Assembly (NCBI GenBank): GCA_900696495.1
Contig: CAADGI010000014.1
Span: forward strand, 248,001-312,000
From: an uncultured Alphaproteobacteria bacterium
GTDB lineage: Bacteria; Pseudomonadota; Alphaproteobacteria; Micavibrionales; Micavibrionaceae
DNA: 64,000 nucleotides
Direction: 5' to 3'
Shown here piece by piece: positions 1-40,865 of this stretch. Every line of letters starts with the position of its first letter. Positions within the stretch are counted from its first letter, which is position 1. The position numbers and the translations under genes were made by a program. The notes below the pieces were generated by a model that saw only the letters and a list, made by a program, of their open reading frames with translations, ran no database searches and had not been told where the DNA came from.

Positions 1-3000
1 ATGCCCTTCGATATATAGGTCTGGCCGTTATCCGTGCGGATTTGCACCACGGGCTTGCCGGCTTTCATATCGATGGCGATCGCTTGCGCCGCGTTTTCGT
101 CATTCGTATCCCAGTAAACGACGGTCGATTTTGACGGCGTGCCGCCGCTGTGGGATTGCGAATAGACGGGCTGGCCGTCCGCAAACCGCGGCAGATAGTT
201 CCGTTGTTCGGGCGTGCGTTCGCCGCTGCCGGCCTGCACGACACCGGTCGCGGGCTCCAGCTTCGGCGCGGGATCCATGCCCGTGTCCAGCCACTTGCGG
301 AACAGCATGAAAGTGAGAACGAGGGAGCCCAGCTTCAGGATCGAGCCGACGATCGGAATCTGGCCGACCCACATTTTATCCCAGAACGGGCTGATGAGTG
401 TCGATGCGGCGATAACCGCGCCGATGCCGGCGCCGACGTCGCGGATCATCGTGCGGCCGCCGCCGCCCGGTTTGTTGCGGATGTGGGAATAGGCGTTGCC
501 AAGCCAGTTGAAGCCGCTCGACACGGCGGAGCCGAACGCGTCGCCTAGTGAATTGACGCCGGACCCGCTTTCATCGGTGCTTGTATAGCCTTTATAAGAA
601 TTCCACCAGTCGCCGACATGATCGCCCAGGCTTTTTTCACTGCCGTCCGGGGTTCTGGCCGGTTCGCTGGCTTTGGGTTTGATTCTGTCCGCGCCGGGTT
701 TTTTTCCGTCGTCTTTGTGACCGTCCTTGCCTGCGTCTTTTTGCTTCGCCAGTAATTCTTTGCGCGCTTTTTCCTGCTTCGCGGCTTCTTCTTTTTCTTT
801 TTTCAGCTTTTCCGCTTCTTCCGCTTTGCGTATGTCATCCAGCCGCTTCTGTTCCGCTTCCGGGTTCTCCGGAGGAATATCGGTTCTCCGCACATGCGAC
901 AGGGCGGGGTTATCGGCTTTCGCGGCGCCCGCCAGCGTTTTCAGCATCTCGAGGCCGCGCTTGTCGGTTTCCTGCAGGTCCGGGCGCAGGAAAGCGATAT
1001 CGCTGGCGAAAGCATCGTGTTCCGCCTGAAGCTGGGCAGGAAGCGTTTTTTTATTCGCATCCCAGCCTTTTTGAACTTCAACATTCAGCGCGCGAACCCG
1101 GTCATGCCAGATTCTGACTTTGTCGCCGTACTCATGCTGTCTCCGGTTTTCCTCTTCCTGGAAAGTCGGGACGCGGGTCGGCCAGCCATGCGTCATGTTA
1201 TTTCGAAGCTGGAAATCCAGCGTCTCCGTGGCTTGTTTCAGAATATCATTGGCGTAATTGCCGAGCCCGAGATTCTTGACCTGGGCTTCAAGCGCGATGC
1301 GCTGCTTCTCCAGGTTTTTAACTGTTTCCTGCCTGCTTTCCGTCCATTTGCCGTCGTCTGCGATCGAATTCGTCAGGCTGGCAACCGTGCGGCCGAATAT
1401 GCGCAGATCTTCTCTGGCTATTGCTCGGGCTTCTTCCGTCTCTTTTTCTATTTTAGCTTGCTCCGCTAATTTCGGATCAGCTGAGCCGTCTTTTTTAACT
1501 TCTTTTTCGCGCACTATTACCGGCTTCGGAGTCGTTATCTTTGAATCATCTGAATCCCGCGCGGATTTCAAGTTTTTACCTTTGTCCTTATCCTTGTCGT
1601 CGTCCGCCTTTGTTCCAAATACACTGAATGTCGGAATATAGCTGAGAGGATTTCCTATATCGCCAAGTACGGTCTCCTGTGCGTCCTTGACGCCTTCCTT
1701 GAATCCTTGGGCCGCGCCGGTCACGCCGCCCGCGTTCAAGAATTTCTTGGTGTTCCACCAGGTTTCACCCCAGCCCTTCGCAGCGCCCCAGACAGTTTTG
1801 CCTGGGATCAGGCCGAACTGCAGGAGTTGGTAAGCTGTATAATCTTTCCTCTTCTCCCAGGAAATGTCATTGCCGTTCGAGAAATCATATATGAGGCCCG
1901 CGGCGCCCAGAGTGCCGTAAGTGATCAGGCCCGGCGCGGAAGCAATGCCGCCAGTCATCATCCGGACCGGCGATTTGATCCAGAACGGGGAGCGATTGTA
2001 GAGGCCGCCGTTTTCCGGCTTATTTTCTTTCCACCAGAGATTATAAACGGGAGTTATATAATCAGGACGGCTTGGGTCGGGGATGGTTTGGCCTCCCAGC
2101 CAGAAAGCGCGCGCGCGTGCGAGATTGTTGTTCATGGGAATAACAAAGTCCATGCTGAAGCGGGTGGGAGAAATGTAATTATTTGTAGCCCTGTATCGCT
2201 GCGCAATTCGGAAATAGGCCGAATAGGTCTGGAATAATTGCTCCATCCGTCTTTGACCCGTTGGCGCAGGCGAGTGACCCTGGTTGGCGTCGATCATCAC
2301 CTGGTCCAGGAGCTTTCTGAAATTCTGCCAGTCCTTGTCGGTTTTTGATGCAAGAGTGCCTGGAAGATTTTGAAGCGCGGATTTATAAGAATTATCCAGC
2401 TCCTGCCTGATGACTGTCGAGGGAATGATTTCCGGGATGCCGCCGTCCAGTGCAAAGCGTGCGCCTCTATTTTCACCCTGGCTATAACCCAGATAACGCA
2501 GGGCATAAAGCAGTTCATGCTCTTGCCCCATCATATAAGCTTCCCAGATTTTACCGGCCATGTTGGCACCCAATGTACGGGCGTCATACTTTTGACCTTT
2601 CAGCGGCACATAGAAATTTTCCAGCTCAAGCCATGTACGTTCCATGTTGTGCGGTTTGCCCGGGGCGGGGTTTGGCATTGTAATCGGGATAATTCTGTTC
2701 GCAGGGTTAAGATAAGTTTCAGGCATGAAATAGCCTTCCTGCAAACTCCTCTCCAGCCTGCGCTGTGTTTCGAAAAAGGCTTTGCCTTTAAGAGAGCCTT
2801 CCTTGCTAAGAGGACGATGGCTTGAAAGTTTGCCCGTCAATCTCATTTGAGATTCTTCGTAAAGTAGGGTCGCGGAATCCTTGAATGGGTTCGATGCGGC
2901 CCTCAATCTTTTGGCAAGATCTTGTTGGGTTTGCAAAAGTAATGTTTCTGCATCTTTCTTGCTAAGGGTGGCTGCTTGTTGCTGCGCATCATCGATTAAT

Positions 3001-4427
3001 TTTTTAAGATGGGTCAGATTTTTATCAAGAGCAGGTTTTTTAGAAGCAATATCTGCTACCGCCTTCGCGACGTCGTTTCCGACTGTATCTATATATTGGT
3101 TGAGGGCGTCAATCTGGCGCTGGATTATGGAGCGCACATTGGGAGTCAATGCGCGGGCTTCTGCTGTGAGCTGCGAATGAGCGGCATTGAATTTTGCAGC
3201 GGCATTGGGAAGGCTGGATGTCAGATCGGAAGCTGTCTTCTGAATCCGCGCTTGCGCGTCGCTTAAAGTTATTTTTCCCATTTCAAGATCGGCCGCGATA
3301 TCTTTCAGCTTTGTGCCGATGCCCAGGACACTGCCCAGTCCTTTGCCGTGCGCGTCAGAGGCCATGATATTGTCATCTATTGCCTTGATCACGGGCCTGA
3401 TATAACGGGCGCTCTTAATGGAGAACATGGGGGTATTGTTGAATATCCCTTGGAGCTGCGTGAAAGGATATTTTCCAGGAAGCGCATCCACAAACCTGTA
3501 AACAAAATTAGGTTCATACGGAGGAATGATCCTGCCGCCCACCGGCGCTACTGTCGGCGTTCCCGGCGTTATGTTGCCCGTCCATTTGCCTTTCAGCCAC
3601 GAGCCCGTGTCTCTCAAAACTTTACCGGTGGCGCCGAGGCCGGCGCCGAATCCAAAGCCGTATAGGGACTTTTCGCCGATCTGCGATGTATCCAGATCAT
3701 GCTGGTATTGATAGGCCTTGCCATCGACCTTGAATTTCTGCATCTGGACTTTTTGCTCGACATAATTCTGTGTGCCGCTGGCGACCGCGCCTTCGACGCC
3801 GGCAGCCGCGAGGCTTTTCATGCTCATGGTTTTGACGGACTGAACGAGCAGGGTTTTGAGCGTGGCCTGCATGGCGGCTCTGGCGGCCTGTACGGCGACC
3901 GTGCCCGCGCCGCCGGTGAAAGCGCCGATTCCGACGCCGATCAAATTCGTGGCGTCGGTCATGCCCTGACCGAGGCCGTACAACGTGCCCATGCTGAGGA
4001 AGGAACCTTCCGTATGCTCGAAAGCCTGCATCATGTAGAGGAACGCGGCGCGCTGTTCGTTCGTGGTTGATTTTTTCTGGAGCTGGTAGAGTGTCGCGGT
4101 GGAGCTGTCGCCGCTGCCGATCAGGTCAGCCGCAGATGCCGTAGTGTTGTTGAACCAGCGCATGGTGGTGATGCCGAATTCGCCGAGCTGGGCCTGCGCG
4201 GCTTTGGATTTGGGATCGATATTTTCGCGCTCGCAATGTTCCAGCCATGTCTCGCCGTTCTTCATCTTGTAGACGAGCGCCGCGGCATCGAGGAAGGACT
4301 TGTTATTTCTCAGGGAATCGACAGGCTGCTTGGGCTTTTCAAAAATCGTGTGGTCATAGCCAAGCTTGGCCTCTTTCCAGAATTTGGCCGGAGTCGTACC
4401 TTCTATATCAACCTTGGCATCTAACAT
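1..4427 (-). CDS. Giant protein of unknown function, C-terminus beyond window
   Basis: One reading frame stays open from an ATG at 4427 to the left edge, giving 1475 residues without a stop; I read it by reverse-complementing the window. The start has an AGAGG ribosome site about 9 bases upstream. No signal peptide is visible. In order: a soluble N-terminus; a Gly/Ala-rich hydrophobic stretch near residues 156-200; a long coiled-coil-like, Gln/Lys/Ala-rich part near 390-510; a charged Lys/Glu-rich coiled coil near 1185-1240; and a hydrophobic pair of segments near 1326-1382 that look membrane-spanning. I recognise no family. It follows a small membrane protein on the same strand, and a CtrA box lies upstream of both. 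Size, glycine-rich hydrophobic region and coiled coils recall secreted or contact-dependent proteins, but that is only a guess. Confidence 0.85.
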   Translation of the reverse strand, partial: MLDAKVDIEGTTPAKFWKEAKLGYDHTIFEKPKQPVDSLRNNKSFLDAAALVYKMKNGETWLEHCERENIDPKSKAAQAQLGEFGITTMRWFNNTTASAADLIGSGDSSTATLYQLQKKSTTNEQRAAFLYMMQAFEHTEGSFLSMGTLYGLGQGMTDATNLIGVGIGAFTGGAGTVAVQAARAAMQATLKTLLVQSVKTMSMKSLAAAGVEGAVASGTQNYVEQKVQMQKFKVDGKAYQYQHDLDTSQIGEKSLYGFGFGAGLGATGKVLRDTGSWLKGKWTGNITPGTPTVAPVGGRIIPPYEPNFVYRFVDALPGKYPFTQLQGIFNNTPMFSIKSARYIRPVIKAIDDNIMASDAHGKGLGSVLGIGTKLKDIAADLEMGKITLSDAQARIQKTASDLTSSLPNAAAKFNAAHSQLTAEARALTPNVRSIIQRQIDALNQYIDTVGNDVAKAVADIASKKPALDKNLTHLKKLIDDAQQQAATLSKKDAETLLLQTQQDLAKRLRAASNPFKDSATLLYEESQMRLTGKLSSHRPLSKEGSLKGKAFFETQRRLERSLQEGYFMPETYLNPANRIIPITMPNPAPGKPHNMERTWLELENFYVPLKGQKYDARTLGANMAGKIWEAYMMGQEHELLYALRYLGYSQGENRGARFALDGGIPEIIPSTVIRQELDNSYKSALQNLPGTLASKTDKDWQNFRKLLDQVMIDANQGHSPAPTGQRRMEQLFQTYSAYFRIAQRYRATNNYISPTRFSMDFVIPMNNNLARARAFWLGGQTIPDPSRPDYITPVYNLWWKENKPENGGLYNRSPFWIKSPVRMMTGGIASAPGLITYGTLGAAGLIYDFSNGNDISWEKRKDYTAYQLLQFGLIPGKTVWGAAKGWGETWWNTKKFLNAGGVTGAAQGFKEGVKDAQETVLGDIGNPLSYIPTFSVFGTKADDDKDKDKGKNLKSARDSDDSKITTPKPVIVREKEVKKDGSADPKLAEQAKIEKETEEARAIAREDLRIFGRTVASLTNSIADDGKWTESRQETVKNLEKQRIALEAQVKNLGLGNYANDILKQATETLDFQLRNNMTHGWPTRVPTFQEEENRRQHEYGDKVRIWHDRVRALNVEVQKGWDANKKTLPAQLQAEHDAFASDIAFLRPDLQETDKRGLEMLKTLAGAAKADNPALSHVRRTDIPPENPEAEQKRLDDIRKAEEAEKLKKEKEEAAKQEKARKELLAKQKDAGKDGHKDDGKKPGADRIKPKASEPARTPDGSEKSLGDHVGDWWNSYKGYTSTDESGSGVNSLGDAFGSAVSSGFNWLGNAYSHIRNKPGGGGRTMIRDVGAGIGAVIAASTLISPFWDKMWVGQIPIVGSILKLGSLVLTFMLFRKWLDTGMDPAPKLEPATGVVQAGSGERTPEQRNYLPRFADGQPVYSQSHSGGTPSKSTVVYWDTNDENAAQAIAIDMKAGKPVVQIRTDNGQTYISKG

Positions 4428-4528
4428 TACACTTGCCTCTAATACACAAACCGCTTTTTATTCTTTGACCTTTTTATCGGGTCCCTTGCCGGGCTCTTGT
4501 TGTCGGTCTTTTTAGTTTTTTAAATTTT

Positions 4529-4990
4529 TTAATTCTTTTCCAGCGCCGGCTCCGCGAAAATATTTGTCTTTGCTGCCGGTGCCGCCGGTTCCGGGTTGAC
4601 CGCTGCGCCGTTATAGCTTGCCTTCAAAAGACTGTGCTGCACGTAATAAACCGCGCATGCCGCCGCAACGCCCATCGCTAACCTGATATAAGTATTCTCG
4701 CCGGGACCGAAGAAATAGGTGAGCGCCAGTGCAACCGTGCTCGGGCCGAAATCCGTGCCCATTTTCTTCGCGAGGTTCATCCATGAATCGGCATTATCCA
4801 GATCGATGCCCGGATTATTATCGGTGTCATCGCCGGGTTTTCCATTAAGCGCTTTTTCTGCCGCGCCTTTTGCCAGGTTAAAAGCGCCTTTGGCGACAGT
4901 TCCGGCTCCGCCGTCTGTCGCATTGTTAAGGGCGCTCCAGCCCGTCCAGGCGCCGGTGCCCATTAAAGCCGCTTTAATTAACCACCACAT
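4529..4990 (-). CDS. Small membrane protein of unknown function, upstream of the giant gene
   Basis: About 153 residues from the ATG at 4990, which has AAGG ten bases upstream; a GTG at 5002 in the same frame is less likely because the ribosome site abuts it. The protein begins with a short hydrophobic segment (MWWLIKAALMGTG), has an Asp/Asn-rich middle and two hydrophobic segments near residues 90-130, then a Pro/Ala-rich tail. No family is recognised. The 102-base gap to the giant gene on the same strand suggests one transcript. Its leader (AAAGGTGTGTT before the start) recurs before the gene at 52884-54014, which suggests joint control. Confidence 0.7.
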   Translation of the reverse strand: MWWLIKAALMGTGAWTGWSALNNATDGGAGTVAKGAFNLAKGAAEKALNGKPGDDTDNNPGIDLDNADSWMNLAKKMGTDFGPSTVALALTYFFGPGENTYIRLAMGVAAACAVYYVQHSLLKASYNGAAVNPEPAAPAAKTNIFAEPALEKN

Positions 4991-5022
4991 GTTCAAACAC
5001 ACCTTTCAAAATGCAGACGCGA

Positions 5023-5039
5023 AAGGCTCCGCGAGCCTT
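5023..5039. promoter_or_regulatory. Leader hairpin upstream of the small membrane protein
   Basis: A perfect 7-base inverted repeat AAGGCTC/GAGCCTT with a 3-base loop lies about 33 bases upstream of the ATG at 4990, inside the presumed mRNA leader. It has no T-run after it, so it is more likely a leader structure than a terminator. Confidence 0.35.
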
Positions 5040-5213
5040 ACTTGCCTGCCGAAGGATATGTGCTTGAAACCTTTTTATGTTCGGGAGAAAAACCGATGGT
5101 TTTCAATCTGCATACCCTCTTATTAAACCGCTGATAGTCTTGTAATCTTTTTATACGTTAATCACATGATACCTATTTTTGGGAAAACCTGCAAATTTTT
5201 CTTCAGCCAAAAG

Positions 5214-5228
5214 TTAATGAAACGTTAA
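5214..5228. promoter_or_regulatory. Perfect CtrA binding box, TTAA-N7-TTAA
   Basis: The bases TTAATGAAACGTTAA match the alphaproteobacterial CtrA full site exactly. It lies in the 289-base gap between the end of purH and the small membrane protein gene, about 220 bases upstream of the latter. ctrA itself is in this window. The site most likely controls the 4990-1 operon. The remainder of the gap is AT-rich with no gene. Confidence 0.5.
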
Positions 5229-5230
5229 TG

Positions 5231-5253
5231 AAACCCTTACGCAACAAGGGTTT
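5231..5253 (-). terminator. Hairpin after purH
   Basis: AAACCCTT and AAGGGTTT form an 8-base stem with a 7-base loop, 27 bases downstream of the purH stop. No clear T-run follows on the minus strand, so termination is plausible rather than certain. Confidence 0.45.
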
Positions 5254-5279
5254 CCGCGAAGTGCCCGATTCAATTGAGG

Positions 5280-6884
5280 CTAGTGGCGGAAATGGCGGAC
5301 GCCGGTGAAAACCATGGCGAGGCCGCGCTCGTCCGCGGCGGCAATGACTTCATGGTCACGGATCGAACCGCCCGGCTGGATGACGGCGGTGACGCCGGCC
5401 TCGGCGGCGGAGATCAATCCGTCCGCGAACGGGAAGAACGCGTCCGACGCCACGACCGAACCTTTTGCCAGCGATTCTTTCAGGCCCGCGCCTTTTGCCG
5501 CTTCGCCCGCTTTCCACGCCGCGATGCGCGATGAATCGACCCGGCTCATCTGCCCGGCGCCGATTCCGACAGTTGCGCCGCCCCGGGCATAAACGATCGC
5601 GTTCGATTTCACATGCTTGGCGACGGTGAAGGCGAACAGCATGTCGTTCAGTTCCTGCTCGCTCGGCGCGCGCTTGGTGACGACTTTCAAATCCTTCTTG
5701 GTGATATGCGCGCCGTCGGCATCCTGCAGCAGGAAACCGCCCGCGATGCGCGTGATGATGCGGGGCAGGGCCTCGCGCTTCGGCATTTCACCTGCGGCCA
5801 GCACGCGGATCTTGTCTTTCTTCTTGAGCACTTCAAGCGCGTCTTTATCAACCGAGGGCGCAATGATAACCTCGACGAAAATCTTGGTAATTTCCTCGGC
5901 CGTGGCTTTGTCGAGCGGGCGGTTCAGCGCGATGATGCCGCCGAACGCGCTGACAGGATCGCAGAGCAGGGCCGATTTATAGGCGCTGAGCATATCCTTG
6001 CCGCTTGCCACGCCGCACGGGTTCGCGTGCTTGATGATCGCGACAGCCGGGTTTTCAAATTCCGAAACCAGTTCGAACGCCGCGTTGGTATCGTTCAGGT
6101 TATTATAAGAGAGTTCTTTGCCTTGCAGGAACGTCGCCAGCGCCGCGCCGGGGCGCTGGCCGCCATCCAGATATAATGCCGCCGTCTGGTGCGGGTTCTC
6201 GCCGTAGCGCAGAACCTGCTTGAGCGTTCCCGCGACGCTGAAATTCTTCGGGTATTTGCCGCTTTGCGAGGCAAACCAGTTCGAAATCGCTGAATCATAC
6301 GCCGCCGTGTGGGCATAGGCATTCGCCGCGAGCTGCTTGCGTAAGGAATACGACACGCCCCCATCATTCGCTTTCATGTCCTCCAGCACGCGCGCGTAAT
6401 CATCCGCGCCGGTGACGATCGCGACGAAATCATGGTTCTTCGCCGCCGCGCGCACCATCGCCGGGCCGCCGATATCGATATTCTCGATGCAATCCTCGAA
6501 GCTCGCGCCGCTCTGCACCGTTTTCACGAACGGGTAGAGGTTGATGACCACCATGTCGATGTCTTCGATGCCCTGCTTTTTCATCGCCTCGACATGGCTG
6601 GCCTCGTCGCGGCGGGCGAGAATGCCGCCATGGATTTTCGGGTGCAGCGTTTTCACGCGCCCGTCCATGATCTCGGGGAAGCCCGTATGATCGGAAACCT
6701 CGGTGACTTTAATTCCCGCCTTGGCGAGCAGGGAAGCCGTGCCGCCGGTAGAAAGGATGTCGACGCCCTGATTGCTGAGCGCCCGCGCAAAATCCTCGAT
6801 CCCGCTCTTGTCAGAGACGGAAATCAGGGCTCTTTTGATTTTTACGGCGTGGGAATCGGGCATGGCTTTCGCGGCTCTTTGCAT
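5280..6884 (-). CDS. purH: Bifunctional AICAR formyltransferase / IMP cyclohydrolase PurH
   Basis: 534 residues, the full family length. The protein carries out the last two steps of purine synthesis, formylating AICAR with 10-formyl-tetrahydrofolate and closing the ring to IMP. The N-terminal cyclohydrolase domain is clear ([28 protein letters not shown]). The C-terminal transformylase domain shows [28 protein letters not shown] and the ending [13 protein letters not shown] second ATG eight codons in (MPDSHAVK) is an alternative start; neither has a strong ribosome site. It stands alone, between the CtrA-box region and the cheY/chpT pair. Confidence 0.97.
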
Positions 6885-6968
6885 GGGCTTTCAGGGCTAA
6901 AGGTTGTGAGGATTTTGTAAGGCCAAACCGCGCTTTTGGCAAGCGCCCGCCAGAACTTAATTGCGCAC

Positions 6969-7370
6969 TTATTCTTTCGGGATCAACCCGGCCAAGGTAA
7001 ACTTCGCCTTGATGACTTCGCTGTCGAACGGTTTGACGATATATTCGCTGGCGCCGGCCTTCATCGCTTTCTGGATGTTCTTCGGCTTGCTTTCAATCGT
7101 GCAGAAAACGACCTTGGGATGCTTGCCGTTTTTCATCTCGCGGAGTTTTGTCAGGAATTCCATTCCATCCATCACCGGCATTCTCCAGTCCAGCAGGATC
7201 GCGTCCGGCATCGATTGCCTGCAGGCGTCATAAGCCTTTTGCCCGTCTTCCGCCTCGCTGCATTCAAAACCGAGCTCTTCCGCGATACGGCGCGCGACCT
7301 TCCGCACCACGCGGCTGTCGTCTACCACCAGACATGTTTTCGAAACATTCCCCACGCGAAGATTGTACAC
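6969..7370 (-). CDS. Single-domain CheY-like response regulator
   Basis: 133 residues consisting of one receiver domain and no output domain. The acidic pocket (LVVDDS), phospho-acceptor aspartate (LLDWRMPVMDG), Thr (FCTIES) and Lys (IVKPFD) are all present, so it should be phosphorylated. It lies 16 bases after chpT on the same strand, which makes ChpT its likely phosphodonor. In Caulobacter, ChpT passes phosphate to CtrA and to the single-domain regulator CpdR; this protein resembles CheY more than CpdR. The GTG at 7370 has no good ribosome site, and a second GTG six codons in is possible. Confidence 0.9.
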   Translation of the reverse strand: MYNLRVGNVSKTCLVVDDSRVVRKVARRIAEELGFECSEAEDGQKAYDACRQSMPDAILLDWRMPVMDGMEFLTKLREMKNGKHPKVVFCTIESKPKNIQKAMKAGASEYIVKPFDSEVIKAKFTLAGLIPKE

Positions 7371-7386
7371 GATTTAAAGGAAGGAA

Positions 7387-8022
7387 TTAAGCCTTGATGG
7401 TGATGCTGACAAAACCCTGGCCGCTATCCTTGGCGGTGACGGTGAATCCATGACGTTCCGCCAATAGACCGGTCATCATGGCATGGACGTATTTAGGGTC
7501 GAGATGCTGGGCATCCAGCTTGAGGGCGAGGGCCTCTTCGGTCTGGCCGCGTAAGCTCGCGTTCTCGCCCTTGGCGACGATCGCGGTTTCGGAATTGGCG
7601 CCGACGACGGAAATCGTCCCGCCTTTCGGCAGGCATTCGATGCCGAGCAAAATCCCGCAGATCAGCATCTTGCAGAAACCTTTCGGAGGCGCAGCGCCGC
7701 CGATGCCCGCATTCGGGTTCCATTCCTGCTTGATCTTCTTGTCCTGGCTGATGAGGAATTCGATAGCCTTGTGGACATCTTCCGGCTTGATGTTGGAATC
7801 CGCGCCACCGATGCCGTAGGCCATGCGGAACGCCTGCAGTTTCGCCGAGGCCTGCTGCGCGCTGAACGCAATCAGCGCCGTGGCTTCCGGCCCCGCATCC
7901 GCGCCCATATCCTCGATCAACTCGACGCCGTTATTCACCGCGCCGATCGGGCTGATGAGATCGTGGCAGATTTTCGAGGCCAGGACTTCGAGCATCGCTG
8001 CGTCGACGGATTTTGTGCTCAT
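7387..8022 (-). CDS. chpT: ChpT-type histidine phosphotransferase
   Basis: 211 residues from the ATG at 8022, chosen because AAAGGAAAATTCT stands directly before it; the frame extends 12 codons further up without a better start. The N-terminal helix carries the family signature KICHDLISPIGAVNNG with the phosphorylated His. A GHKL-like C-terminal domain follows but lacks a readable ATP-binding motif, as in ChpT. In Caulobacter this protein relays phosphate from CckA to CtrA and CpdR. Its partner ctrA is at 40152-40865, and a CheY-like regulator follows directly. Confidence 0.85.
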   Translation of the reverse strand: MSTKSVDAAMLEVLASKICHDLISPIGAVNNGVELIEDMGADAGPEATALIAFSAQQASAKLQAFRMAYGIGGADSNIKPEDVHKAIEFLISQDKKIKQEWNPNAGIGGAAPPKGFCKMLICGILLGIECLPKGGTISVVGANSETAIVAKGENASLRGQTEEALALKLDAQHLDPKYVHAMMTGLLAERHGFTVTAKDSGQGFVSITIKA

Positions 8023-8040
8023 AGAATTTTCCTTTCTGAC

Positions 8041-8155
8041 TGACCACGAATGGAACACGAATTATGCGGATTTTAAACGCGAAGGTACGAAGTTACGAAG
8101 AAATAAATATAAAAACTAAAAACTTCATTCCTTCGTTACTTCGCGTGAAATATTT
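8041..8155. repeat. Long imperfect inverted repeat, ACGAAG family
   Basis: The gap upstream of chpT holds CACGAA/ACGAAG motifs on the left arm and CTTCG/TTCGCG motifs on the right arm around an AT-rich centre. Related elements occur at 26104, 32694, 37260 and 45980. Confidence 0.6.
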
Positions 8156-25176: not shown

Positions 25177-26088
25177 TTAAGCCCTTTTCCCCTGACGTTC
25201 GATTACCTTCTGCGCCTCGACCTCGTTGGCGTAGGCGGCGCGTTCGGATTCATGGAACAGCATCGTGCCGGGGCCGACCGATTCATAAATTTCCTTCTTC
25301 AGCGCGTCGGGACGCAGGCCATTGATCAGGTGGATGCGCCGCACGCCGCCCTCGAGCGCCGCGAGGCAGTTTTCGAGCTTCACCTTCATGCCGCCGGTGG
25401 CGATCCCGTTTTTAATCAGGCCGGGGATTTCCTGCGCGGTGATGATATCGGCGGCCTTGCCGTCGATCTGCACGCCGTCGACATCCGACAGGAACATTAA
25501 TTTATGCGCCTTCGTGCCGGTGGCAAGCTGCGTGGCGATGGTGTCGGCATTGATGTTCAGAACCTGGCCTTCCGGCGTCATGCCGACGCAGGAACAGGCG
25601 ACGAAATTGGCGTTGCGGAACAGGCGGGCGACGGGGCGGCTCTCGGTGCTTTTGACGTCGCCGACGAAACCGTAATCGACCGGCTTTTTCGGGCGCAGCT
25701 CGAGGCGCATCCAGTCATGGGGGATGGCGTTGAGGGCGATGCCCTCGACGTTATGTTTTGCCATGCTGCTCGCGATATTGAGCGAGAGCGTGCCGCCGAC
25801 GACCTCTTGAATGACTTCGAGCGTGGCGGCGTCGGTGACGCGGCGGCCCTCGACTTTTTTGACCTCGATGCCGCGCTGCTGGAGTTTTTCATCCACGAGC
25901 CGGCCATGGCCGTAGATCAGCAGGATTTTAATCCCGTGCAGCGTCAGGTCGCGGATGTTCGAGATCAGGTTGTCGAGAATGCCGCGGTCTTCGACGATCT
26001 TGCCGCCGACCTTCACGACGAAAAGATTGTCCTTGAACTTGCTCTCGTAGAACGCGTCGATGAAAAAATTCGGTTTTTTGCGTGCCAT
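25177..26088 (-). CDS. argB: Acetylglutamate kinase (divergent)
   Basis: 303 residues from the ATG at 26088 (MARKKPNFF). It phosphorylates N-acetylglutamate. The amino-acid kinase fold is readable: FVVKVGGKIVED, the substrate motif LNINADTIATQLA, FLSDVDGV and ATGGMKVKLE. One glycine-rich loop is unusual, LLIYGHGRLVDE, where most family members have HGGGP. There is no C-terminal acetyltransferase domain, so it is not a fused synthase-kinase. It is followed by argD and preceded by argC. Confidence 0.88.
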   Translation of the reverse strand: MARKKPNFFIDAFYESKFKDNLFVVKVGGKIVEDRGILDNLISNIRDLTLHGIKILLIYGHGRLVDEKLQQRGIEVKKVEGRRVTDAATLEVIQEVVGGTLSLNIASSMAKHNVEGIALNAIPHDWMRLELRPKKPVDYGFVGDVKSTESRPVARLFRNANFVACSCVGMTPEGQVLNINADTIATQLATGTKAHKLMFLSDVDGVQIDGKAADIITAQEIPGLIKNGIATGGMKVKLENCLAALEGGVRRIHLINGLRPDALKKEIYESVGPGTMLFHESERAAYANEVEAQKVIERQGKRA

Positions 26089-26103
26089 ATTTAATTTCCT
26101 TTT

Positions 26104-26172
26104 AACCACGAAGCTCACGAAGAACACGAAAAAAACATTTAATATCTTCGTGAACTTCGTGTCCTTCGTGGT
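26104..26172. repeat. Long inverted repeat, ACGAAG family
   Basis: AACCACGAAG near the left end pairs with CTTCGTGGTT on the right; it fills the gap between argC and argB. Confidence 0.75.
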
Positions 26173-30288: not shown

Positions 30289-30386
30289 GGCCGTTATGCT
30301 AGGCATCAGGGCAATTCTTGACAAGGGCGGCAACATTTGTCATAATTTTAACCCTTGATTAAGCCAAGAGTTCCGGAGAAGAAAAA

Positions 30387-40151: not shown

Positions 40152-40865
40152 CTACGCGTTAGCGGCTTTTTTCTTCTTTTCTTTTTCCGCTTCCGGGTCG
40201 CGCAGGACATAGCCGCGGCCCCAGACGGTTTCGATATAATTGTCGCCGCCTGCCGCATCTGCCAGTTTCTTGCGGAGCTTGCAGATGAATACGTCGATGA
40301 TCTTGACCTCGGGTTCGTCCATGCCGCCATAGAGGTGGTTCAGGAACATTTCCTTGGTCAGCGTCGAGCCTTTGCGCAGGGAAAGCAGTTCGATGATGCC
40401 GTATTCCTTGCCCGTCAGGTGCAGGGGTTTGCTGTCGACTTCCACCGTGCGGGTGTCGAGGTTCACGAGCACCTTGCCGGTCTGGATGACCGACTGCGAA
40501 TGGCCCTGCGAACGGCGGACAATCGCCTGGATGCGGGCGATCAGTTCACGTTTATCAAACGGCTTGGTCAGGTAATCGTCGGCGCCGTAGCCGAGACCCT
40601 TGATCTTGTTGTCGAGCTCGGTGAGGCCCGAGAGGATGAGGATGGGGGTTTCGACCTTGGAGTCTCGCAGCGCCTTGAGGACGTCATAGCCGTCCATGTC
40701 GGGGAGCATGAGGTCGAGAATGATGATGTCGTAGTCGTAAATTTTTCCGATTTCGAGACCGTCTTCGCCGAGATCGGCGAGATCAACGATATAGCCTTCG
40801 GATTTCAGCATCAGCTCGATGCTTTTAGCGGTTGAAGTATCGTCTTCTACTAAAAGTACGCGCAT
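40152..40865 (-). CDS. ctrA: Cell-cycle response regulator CtrA
   Basis: 237 residues, receiver plus winged-helix DNA-binding domain of the OmpR class. The phosphorylated Asp is in [15 protein letters not shown]. The C-terminal part contains the near-invariant CtrA blocks [18 protein letters not shown] and [19 protein letters not shown]. CtrA controls flagellar, division and replication genes by binding TTAA-N7-TTAA sites. The C-terminus here is Lys-rich and ends AANA, whereas Caulobacter CtrA ends in two alanines used for ClpXP degradation. Confidence 0.97.

Follow-up and report, generated by a model that had tools for sequence, protein, structure and literature searches.

A hypervariable giant-protein cassette of Micavibrionaceae, probably under cell-cycle control, and its possible role beside a Dot/Icm-type secretion system

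Introduction

In the Legionella Dot/Icm (type IVB) secretion system, the known adaptors, which are small and acidic, bind their effectors at the coupling complex (PMC12981334; PMC7251119). Transmembrane domains occur in roughly one third of type IV effectors (PMC12981334), and membrane-inserting effectors are known for Legionella (PMC12981334; PMC7251119). In the predator Micavibrio aeruginosavorus, very large RTX/hemolysin-related proteins were proposed to act on prey, and the genome paper of strain ARL-13 described type I and type II systems and found no evidence of type III or type IV (PMC3189940). We found no description of a Micavibrio Dot/Icm-type system in the literature searched, the coverage of which is incomplete.

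Here we analysed a 64,000-nucleotide stretch of DNA (the window) from an uncultured member of the Micavibrionaceae. It carries most of a gene for a giant protein, whose cassette also encodes a small membrane protein and two further small proteins, C1 and C2. In many genomes, genes of the C2 family travel with a cluster that is, by profile matches and gene order, a Dot/Icm (type IVB) secretion system. As in Dot/Icm and IncI conjugation systems, DotI, DotG, DotF, a DotE/TraQ-type protein, DotN and a DotO-like ATPase are found in one cluster; it differs in occurring in relatives of a bacterial predator, not in an intracellular pathogen, and in many genomes it comes with C2-family genes and variable partner proteins. 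C1 and C2 resemble IcmS, IcmW and LvgA in being small, cytoplasmic and genetically tied to a type IVB system, and C2 is acidic as well. However, C1 and C2 are predicted to be beta-rich, match none of the solved chains in sequence, profile or fold, and are encoded by a gene pair adjoining a presumed single client. The C2 family gave no relevant sequence or fold match in the PDB, and none of the comparisons made (sequence, profile or fold) showed C1 and C2 to be homologous to the Legionella adaptors.

The giant is comparable to transmembrane type IV effectors in its large size, its weakly hydrophobic segments and its lack of an evident export signal. In contrast to them, it is a candidate substrate with no homology found to a known effector, and the prey would be a bacterium instead of a eukaryotic cell. 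With the RTX/hemolysin-related giants it shares its very large size and a proposed action on prey, but it matches no RTX repeat family (the Ca-binding nonapeptide repeats of PF00353 were absent from its first 1,475 aa), so type I export is not indicated.

Results

The giant protein and its hydrophobic segments

The window is part of G000:C14, where G000 denotes its own genome. The genes and conserved blocks of the cassette are as follows.

1..4427, minus strand: giant protein gene, codons 1-1,475 of 1,550 (open frame and homologues in relatives)
123..575, minus strand: block C of the giant, aa 1285-1435, conserved, holding both C-terminal hydrophobic segments (profile search and hydrophobicity)
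2475..2762, minus strand: block M of the giant, aa 556-651, conserved (iterated profile search)
3630..4358, minus strand: block N of the giant, aa 24-266, conserved, Gly/Ala-rich, helical (iterated profile search; AF2 confident about aa 11-140 only)
4529..5002, minus strand: gene for the small membrane protein (157 aa), at the head of the operon (open frame, hydrophobicity and G001 homologue)
G000:C14:247775-248000, outside the window: remainder of the giant gene (genome sequence)
G000:C14:247273-247713, outside the window, downstream of the giant: C1, 146 aa
G000:C14:246796-247173, outside the window, between C1 and lepA: C2, 125 aa

The earlier note, made from the window's letters, had described an open frame of at least 1475 codons, of no known family, behind a small membrane protein, and had proposed following it to its stop. 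The frame proved real, with homologous frames in relatives. It begins with an ATG at 4427 on the minus strand and runs for 1,475 codons to the window edge; in the genome sequence the stop lies 226 bases past the window, giving a full product of 1,550 aa. The small membrane protein is likewise present, with a hydrophobic C-terminal segment, and its G001 homologue is 77% identical.

The giant had zero matches in Pfam and none credible in PHROGs or NCBIfam, and no match to a housekeeping family appeared. The sole NCBIfam match was to IS607 (E 9e-4), far below the cut-off and in a low-information helical stretch; this and the other isolated weak matches of giants, C1 and C2 in Pfam, PHROGs, NCBIfam and the PDB were taken as chance. 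Neither the giant nor the 157-aa protein was named by any library searched.

The glycine-rich hydrophobic region (aa 161-179) and the C-terminal membrane segments (aa 1327-1345 and 1357-1375; window 303-449) that had been noticed in the letters are both there, but their hydrophobicity is merely moderate (Kyte-Doolittle 1.4-1.95). We infer that the giant inserts into membranes through these weakly hydrophobic helical segments. An AF2 model of its first 680 aa reached a pLDDT of 50 and was usable at aa 11-140 only; as for the coiled coils read from the letters, it placed long helices at aa 388-531 with low confidence. A fold search of this model in BFVD came back empty, which is a weak test because the model is poor.

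A four-gene cassette that is conserved in order and hypervariable in sequence

The two genes that had been read as an operon do stand together, but the unit is a cassette of four, comprising the small membrane protein, the giant, C1 and C2, which recurs across Micavibrionaceae (the window's family, f1). Relatives were retrieved via C2 and comprised Micavibrio sp. and Alphaproteobacteria MAGs. In most of those examined, the gene order was purH, small membrane protein, giant, C1, C2, lepA. The cassette is nearly restricted to the order, is hypervariable and occurs in relatives of the predator Micavibrio. C2 matches were found in 93 of the order's 142 genomes, a count that includes some paralogues outside the cassette, and C1 accompanied C2 in 32/32 loci, all of them fetched through C2.

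C1 and C2 are paralogues, and one profile unites both with genes elsewhere. C2 was always acidic (pI 4.4-5.5 in 32/32). Its AF2 model (pLDDT 82) had no match in the PDB or BFVD, and no DNA-binding domain was recognisable in the C1 and C2 of the cassette.

Several lineages depart from the common arrangement. The G008 cassette adjoins flhA-flhF-fleN rather than purH and lepA; family f7 has only C2, or C2-x-C2, between purH and lepA; and some lineages encode an additional protein of 490-880 aa upstream. The giants of some relatives are divided into two or three frames, as in G120 and G012, where no ambiguous bases were in view. We did not treat the frameshift of the G002 giant as a real split, because ambiguous bases adjoin it.

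Across genera, the giant retains the conserved blocks N, M and C and is hypervariable outside these three, with unalignable stretches in between. Between G000 and G001 the giant is 55% identical, against 94% for purH, 96% for lepA and 94-96% for C1, with a giant dN of 0.40 versus a dS of 1.23.

Most cassette loci lie in a housekeeping or chemotaxis neighbourhood, and the genes on the purH side in the window are these.

5280..6884, minus strand: purH, the usual upstream neighbour of the cassette (profile match and synteny)
6969..7370, minus strand: CheY-like response regulator (profile match)
7387..8058, minus strand: ChpT-like histidine phosphotransferase (PF10090)

In the window's genus the CheY-like and ChpT-like genes precede purH (5280-8058); many relatives have cheA-cheW-cheB-cheR there, a set absent here.

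A CtrA-type box upstream of the cassette

The elements that bear on regulation are the following.

5214..5228, minus strand: perfect CtrA-type box TTAACGTTTCATTAA, upstream of the operon, conserved in 14/23 loci
5166..5194, minus strand: sigma70-like promoter, TTGCAG (5189-5194), 17-base spacer, TATCAT (5166-5171), consensus match only
4963..4977: second perfect TTAA-N7-TTAA, within the small membrane protein gene, of doubtful significance
40152..40865, minus strand: CtrA-like response regulator with receiver and winged-helix domains, presumed regulator of the operon

The earlier note had found no perfect TTAA-N7-TTAA in the window besides the box at 5214; the count is in fact four (4963, 5214, 26091 and 30348), where 0.37 were expected. 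The one at 26091-26105 is close to the start of a gene that by eye resembles acetylglutamate kinase (25177-26127), and that at 30348-30362 directly upstream of an ABC permease-like gene. Genome-wide, the perfect pattern occurs 43 times against 42 for a reversed control, so a lone perfect box proves little, and we rejected perfection by itself as a sign of significance.

Comparison among relatives was more telling. Upstream of the cassette we counted 15 perfect sites in 14 of 23 loci, whereas shuffling predicted 0.66, the loci being mutually related and hence not independent. The spacer bases differ among loci, and the box is also found in the relocated G008 copy and in f7. Since it is conserved upstream of the cassette, we regard the box at 5214-5228 as the meaningful one. 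Together with the CtrA-like regulator encoded in the window, whose product we take to be the CtrA orthologue by its likeness to the Caulobacter sequence, this comparison strongly suggests that the operon is under CtrA control, as had been proposed, and it is probably cell-cycle-controlled. Sigma70-like elements similar to the one at 5166-5194 follow the box in G001, G002, G120 and G012. Between purH and the box, at 5230-5254, there is an inverted repeat, AAACCCTT...AAGGGTTT, which may terminate purH transcription.

Perfect boxes were also seen upstream of the DotE-DotN-DotO operon in 5/14 loci (0.75 expected), a modest excess, and upstream of C2 paralogues in 3/17 (0.48 expected). The other C2-family gene of the window's genome has one starting 56 bases upstream.

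The C2 family is linked to a Dot/Icm-type cluster

The cluster runs DotI, a 383-aa protein at the expected DotH position, DotG, DotF, the DotE/TraQ-type protein, DotN and DotO, in the order of the Legionella icm genes. DotI/IcmL was matched at 3.7e-60, above the cut-off (L151:6212-6928, 202.7 bits versus 175), and at 205 bits in G001 and G002. The matches to DotG (3e-46), DotF (2e-9) and the DotE/TraQ-type protein (2e-7) all fell below the curated cut-offs. DotN passed its cut-off in 15/38 genomes and reached E<=0.001 in 35/38. What we call DotO is an IcmB-like protein of ~1,000 aa, assigned by size, position and a weak VirB4/TraG resemblance, with no match among solved chains; it was found in 97 of the 99 family genomes, ARL-13 included.

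C2 paralogues in G026, G024 and G025 come right after the ~1,000-aa protein that follows DotN/IcmJ. Of 20 fetched loci, 8 had a C2-family gene closely downstream of DotO, and in 16 genomes such a gene lay downstream within about 3.4 kb, though some of these linkages may represent one ancestral arrangement instead of independent events. Among about 286-289 genomes of the class outside the family, C2 was detected in 5 and DotO in 8, with 4 having the two together (P=1.3e-6). The fifth C2 of this set, in G232, is fused to an XRE helix-turn-helix and lies 3.3 kb from a type IV coupling protein (L185:9617-10165 and L185:13525-14475; PF02534, 7e-10).

Elsewhere, C2-family genes adjoin other large variable proteins. 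One such partner, that of an unlinked C2 paralogue in G111, shows homology to the N-terminus of the cassette giant of the same genome (2.7e-18), indicating that a unit of C2 plus a large partner is repeated.

Other arrangements were seen as well. G078 has two C2-family genes downstream of DotO with two small genes between (L168:15164-17313). Four loci in distant families (L186, L187, L188 and L189) encode C2-like proteins of ~95-115 aa without a large variable partner; the gene stands behind ybaB-recR in L186 and L189, and a protein of 135-142 aa of uncharacterised function adjoins it in L188 and L189. In the window's genome, a 373-aa RTX nonapeptide-repeat protein (L081:7210-8331; G000:C5) is encoded divergently from the second C2-family gene.

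The G000 assembly yielded no DotO, no DotN and no full-length DotI, its DotI-like matches being weak only. It also lacks mltA and dnaQ, both located near the cluster in G002. As dnaQ is normally essential and mltA is gone too, the absence of Dot/Icm from G000 is probably an assembly or binning gap, and we disfavour true loss. DotO, mltA and dnaQ are likewise all missing from G091, and this joint absence suggests a common assembly or binning gap.

Relatives of the cassette in M. aeruginosavorus ARL-13

In G079, which we took as M. aeruginosavorus ARL-13, we examined two loci, L222 (G079:C1:2412000-2431900) and L221 (G079:C1:686000-705900). The genome has a DotE/DotN/DotO cluster with an adjoining C2-family gene and a 374-aa partner, and a short cassette between lepA and cheR consisting of C2, a membrane-type protein and C1. 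At L221 the frame opposite the partner is probably a wrong-strand call; a close relative, G024, has a 438-aa partner there.

Discussion

We tentatively propose, at somewhat below an even chance, that the cassette serves a Dot/Icm-type (type IVB) system as an accessory module under CtrA control, in which the giant is a membrane-inserting protein with C1 and C2 as its chaperones or adaptors, exported in prey attack. CtrA would switch the module on, presumably in motile attack-phase cells. The giant would be a rapidly diversifying, membrane-inserting protein, and C1 and C2 its dedicated chaperone/adaptors, which would maintain its solubility and pass it on to the system's coupling end for delivery into prey or at prey contact. 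Predation by the window's organism is assumed from kinship, and we infer the binding, export, destination, timing and predation role of the module from the genomic comparisons above. Such an adaptor and export model would explain the operon structure, the repeated units of C2 plus a large partner, the linkage and the divergence. Because the family of the helper proteins accompanies an injection machine of the Dot/Icm type, the gene set may be part of prey attack. Against the model, the cassette does not adjoin the secretion cluster. Many genomes have DotO without detectable C2 (most genus-g35 genomes, and G186, G230, G358 and G427), and C2 is therefore at most accessory to the system.

The giant could instead be a structure resident in the predator's envelope or at its cell pole, serving attachment or as a scaffold, expressed under CtrA with the motility genes and assembled by C1 and C2, with an indirect link to Dot/Icm. 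The CtrA box, the chemotaxis neighbourhood (flhA-flhF-fleN in G008) and the hydrophobic segments and helical architecture of the giant would suit this, but we consider it unlikely, as the C2 family is tied to DotO by position and co-occurrence and the giant diverges much faster than its neighbours, as would be expected of an interaction interface more than of a resident scaffold. It also seems improbable that C2 is no chaperone but a regulatory or sensor domain controlling type IV secretion genes, with the giant as a separate regulated product. The distant G232 homologue, with its XRE-type fusion near a coupling protein, points that way, as do the C2-like genes of four distant genomes, which lack a large variable partner and in two cases stand behind ybaB-recR; yet no DNA-binding domain is recognisable in the cassette C1 and C2, and a partner role accords better with both the tandem paralogues 3' of the giant in one operon and the large partners that adjoin unlinked C2 genes.

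Very improbable, in our judgement, is an origin of the giant as a domesticated phage internal or ejection protein, or as a large polyvalent protein from a mobile element. By eye, block N does look like the Gly/Ala-rich stretches of phage internal proteins, and the weak, non-significant BFVD matches included tape-measure, internal virion and polyvalent proteins. However, the giant had no match in phage records and no consistent PHROG family, C2 had no relative in IMG/VR and cassette C2 none in plasmids, and the synteny between purH and lepA looks vertical; neither a profile nor a fold match of the giant to phage ejection or large polyvalent proteins was found, the fold comparison being weak for such a poor model. 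That the frame is spurious or the box due to chance can practically be dismissed: although TTAA-N7-TTAA is no commoner in the genome than its reversed control, homologous frames stand in the same place in many genera, with the dN well below the dS between G000 and G001, and the box is kept while its spacer bases change, a conservation that refutes this explanation.

The export model has a wider form, namely that Micavibrio-like bacteria inject other bacteria through a Dot/Icm-type system, with previously undescribed C1/C2 adaptors and hypervariable, membrane-inserting giant substrates switched on by CtrA in the attack phase; this we hold with more reserve than the reading of the cassette itself. 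A Dot/Icm-type machine in ARL-13 runs against the statement of its genome paper that there is no type IV system. In this cultured strain, the findings offer a specific, testable candidate for an injection machine, its adaptors, its substrates and a cell-cycle switch. If true, they would extend Dot/Icm attacks from eukaryotic cells to bacteria and add a new family of adaptors.
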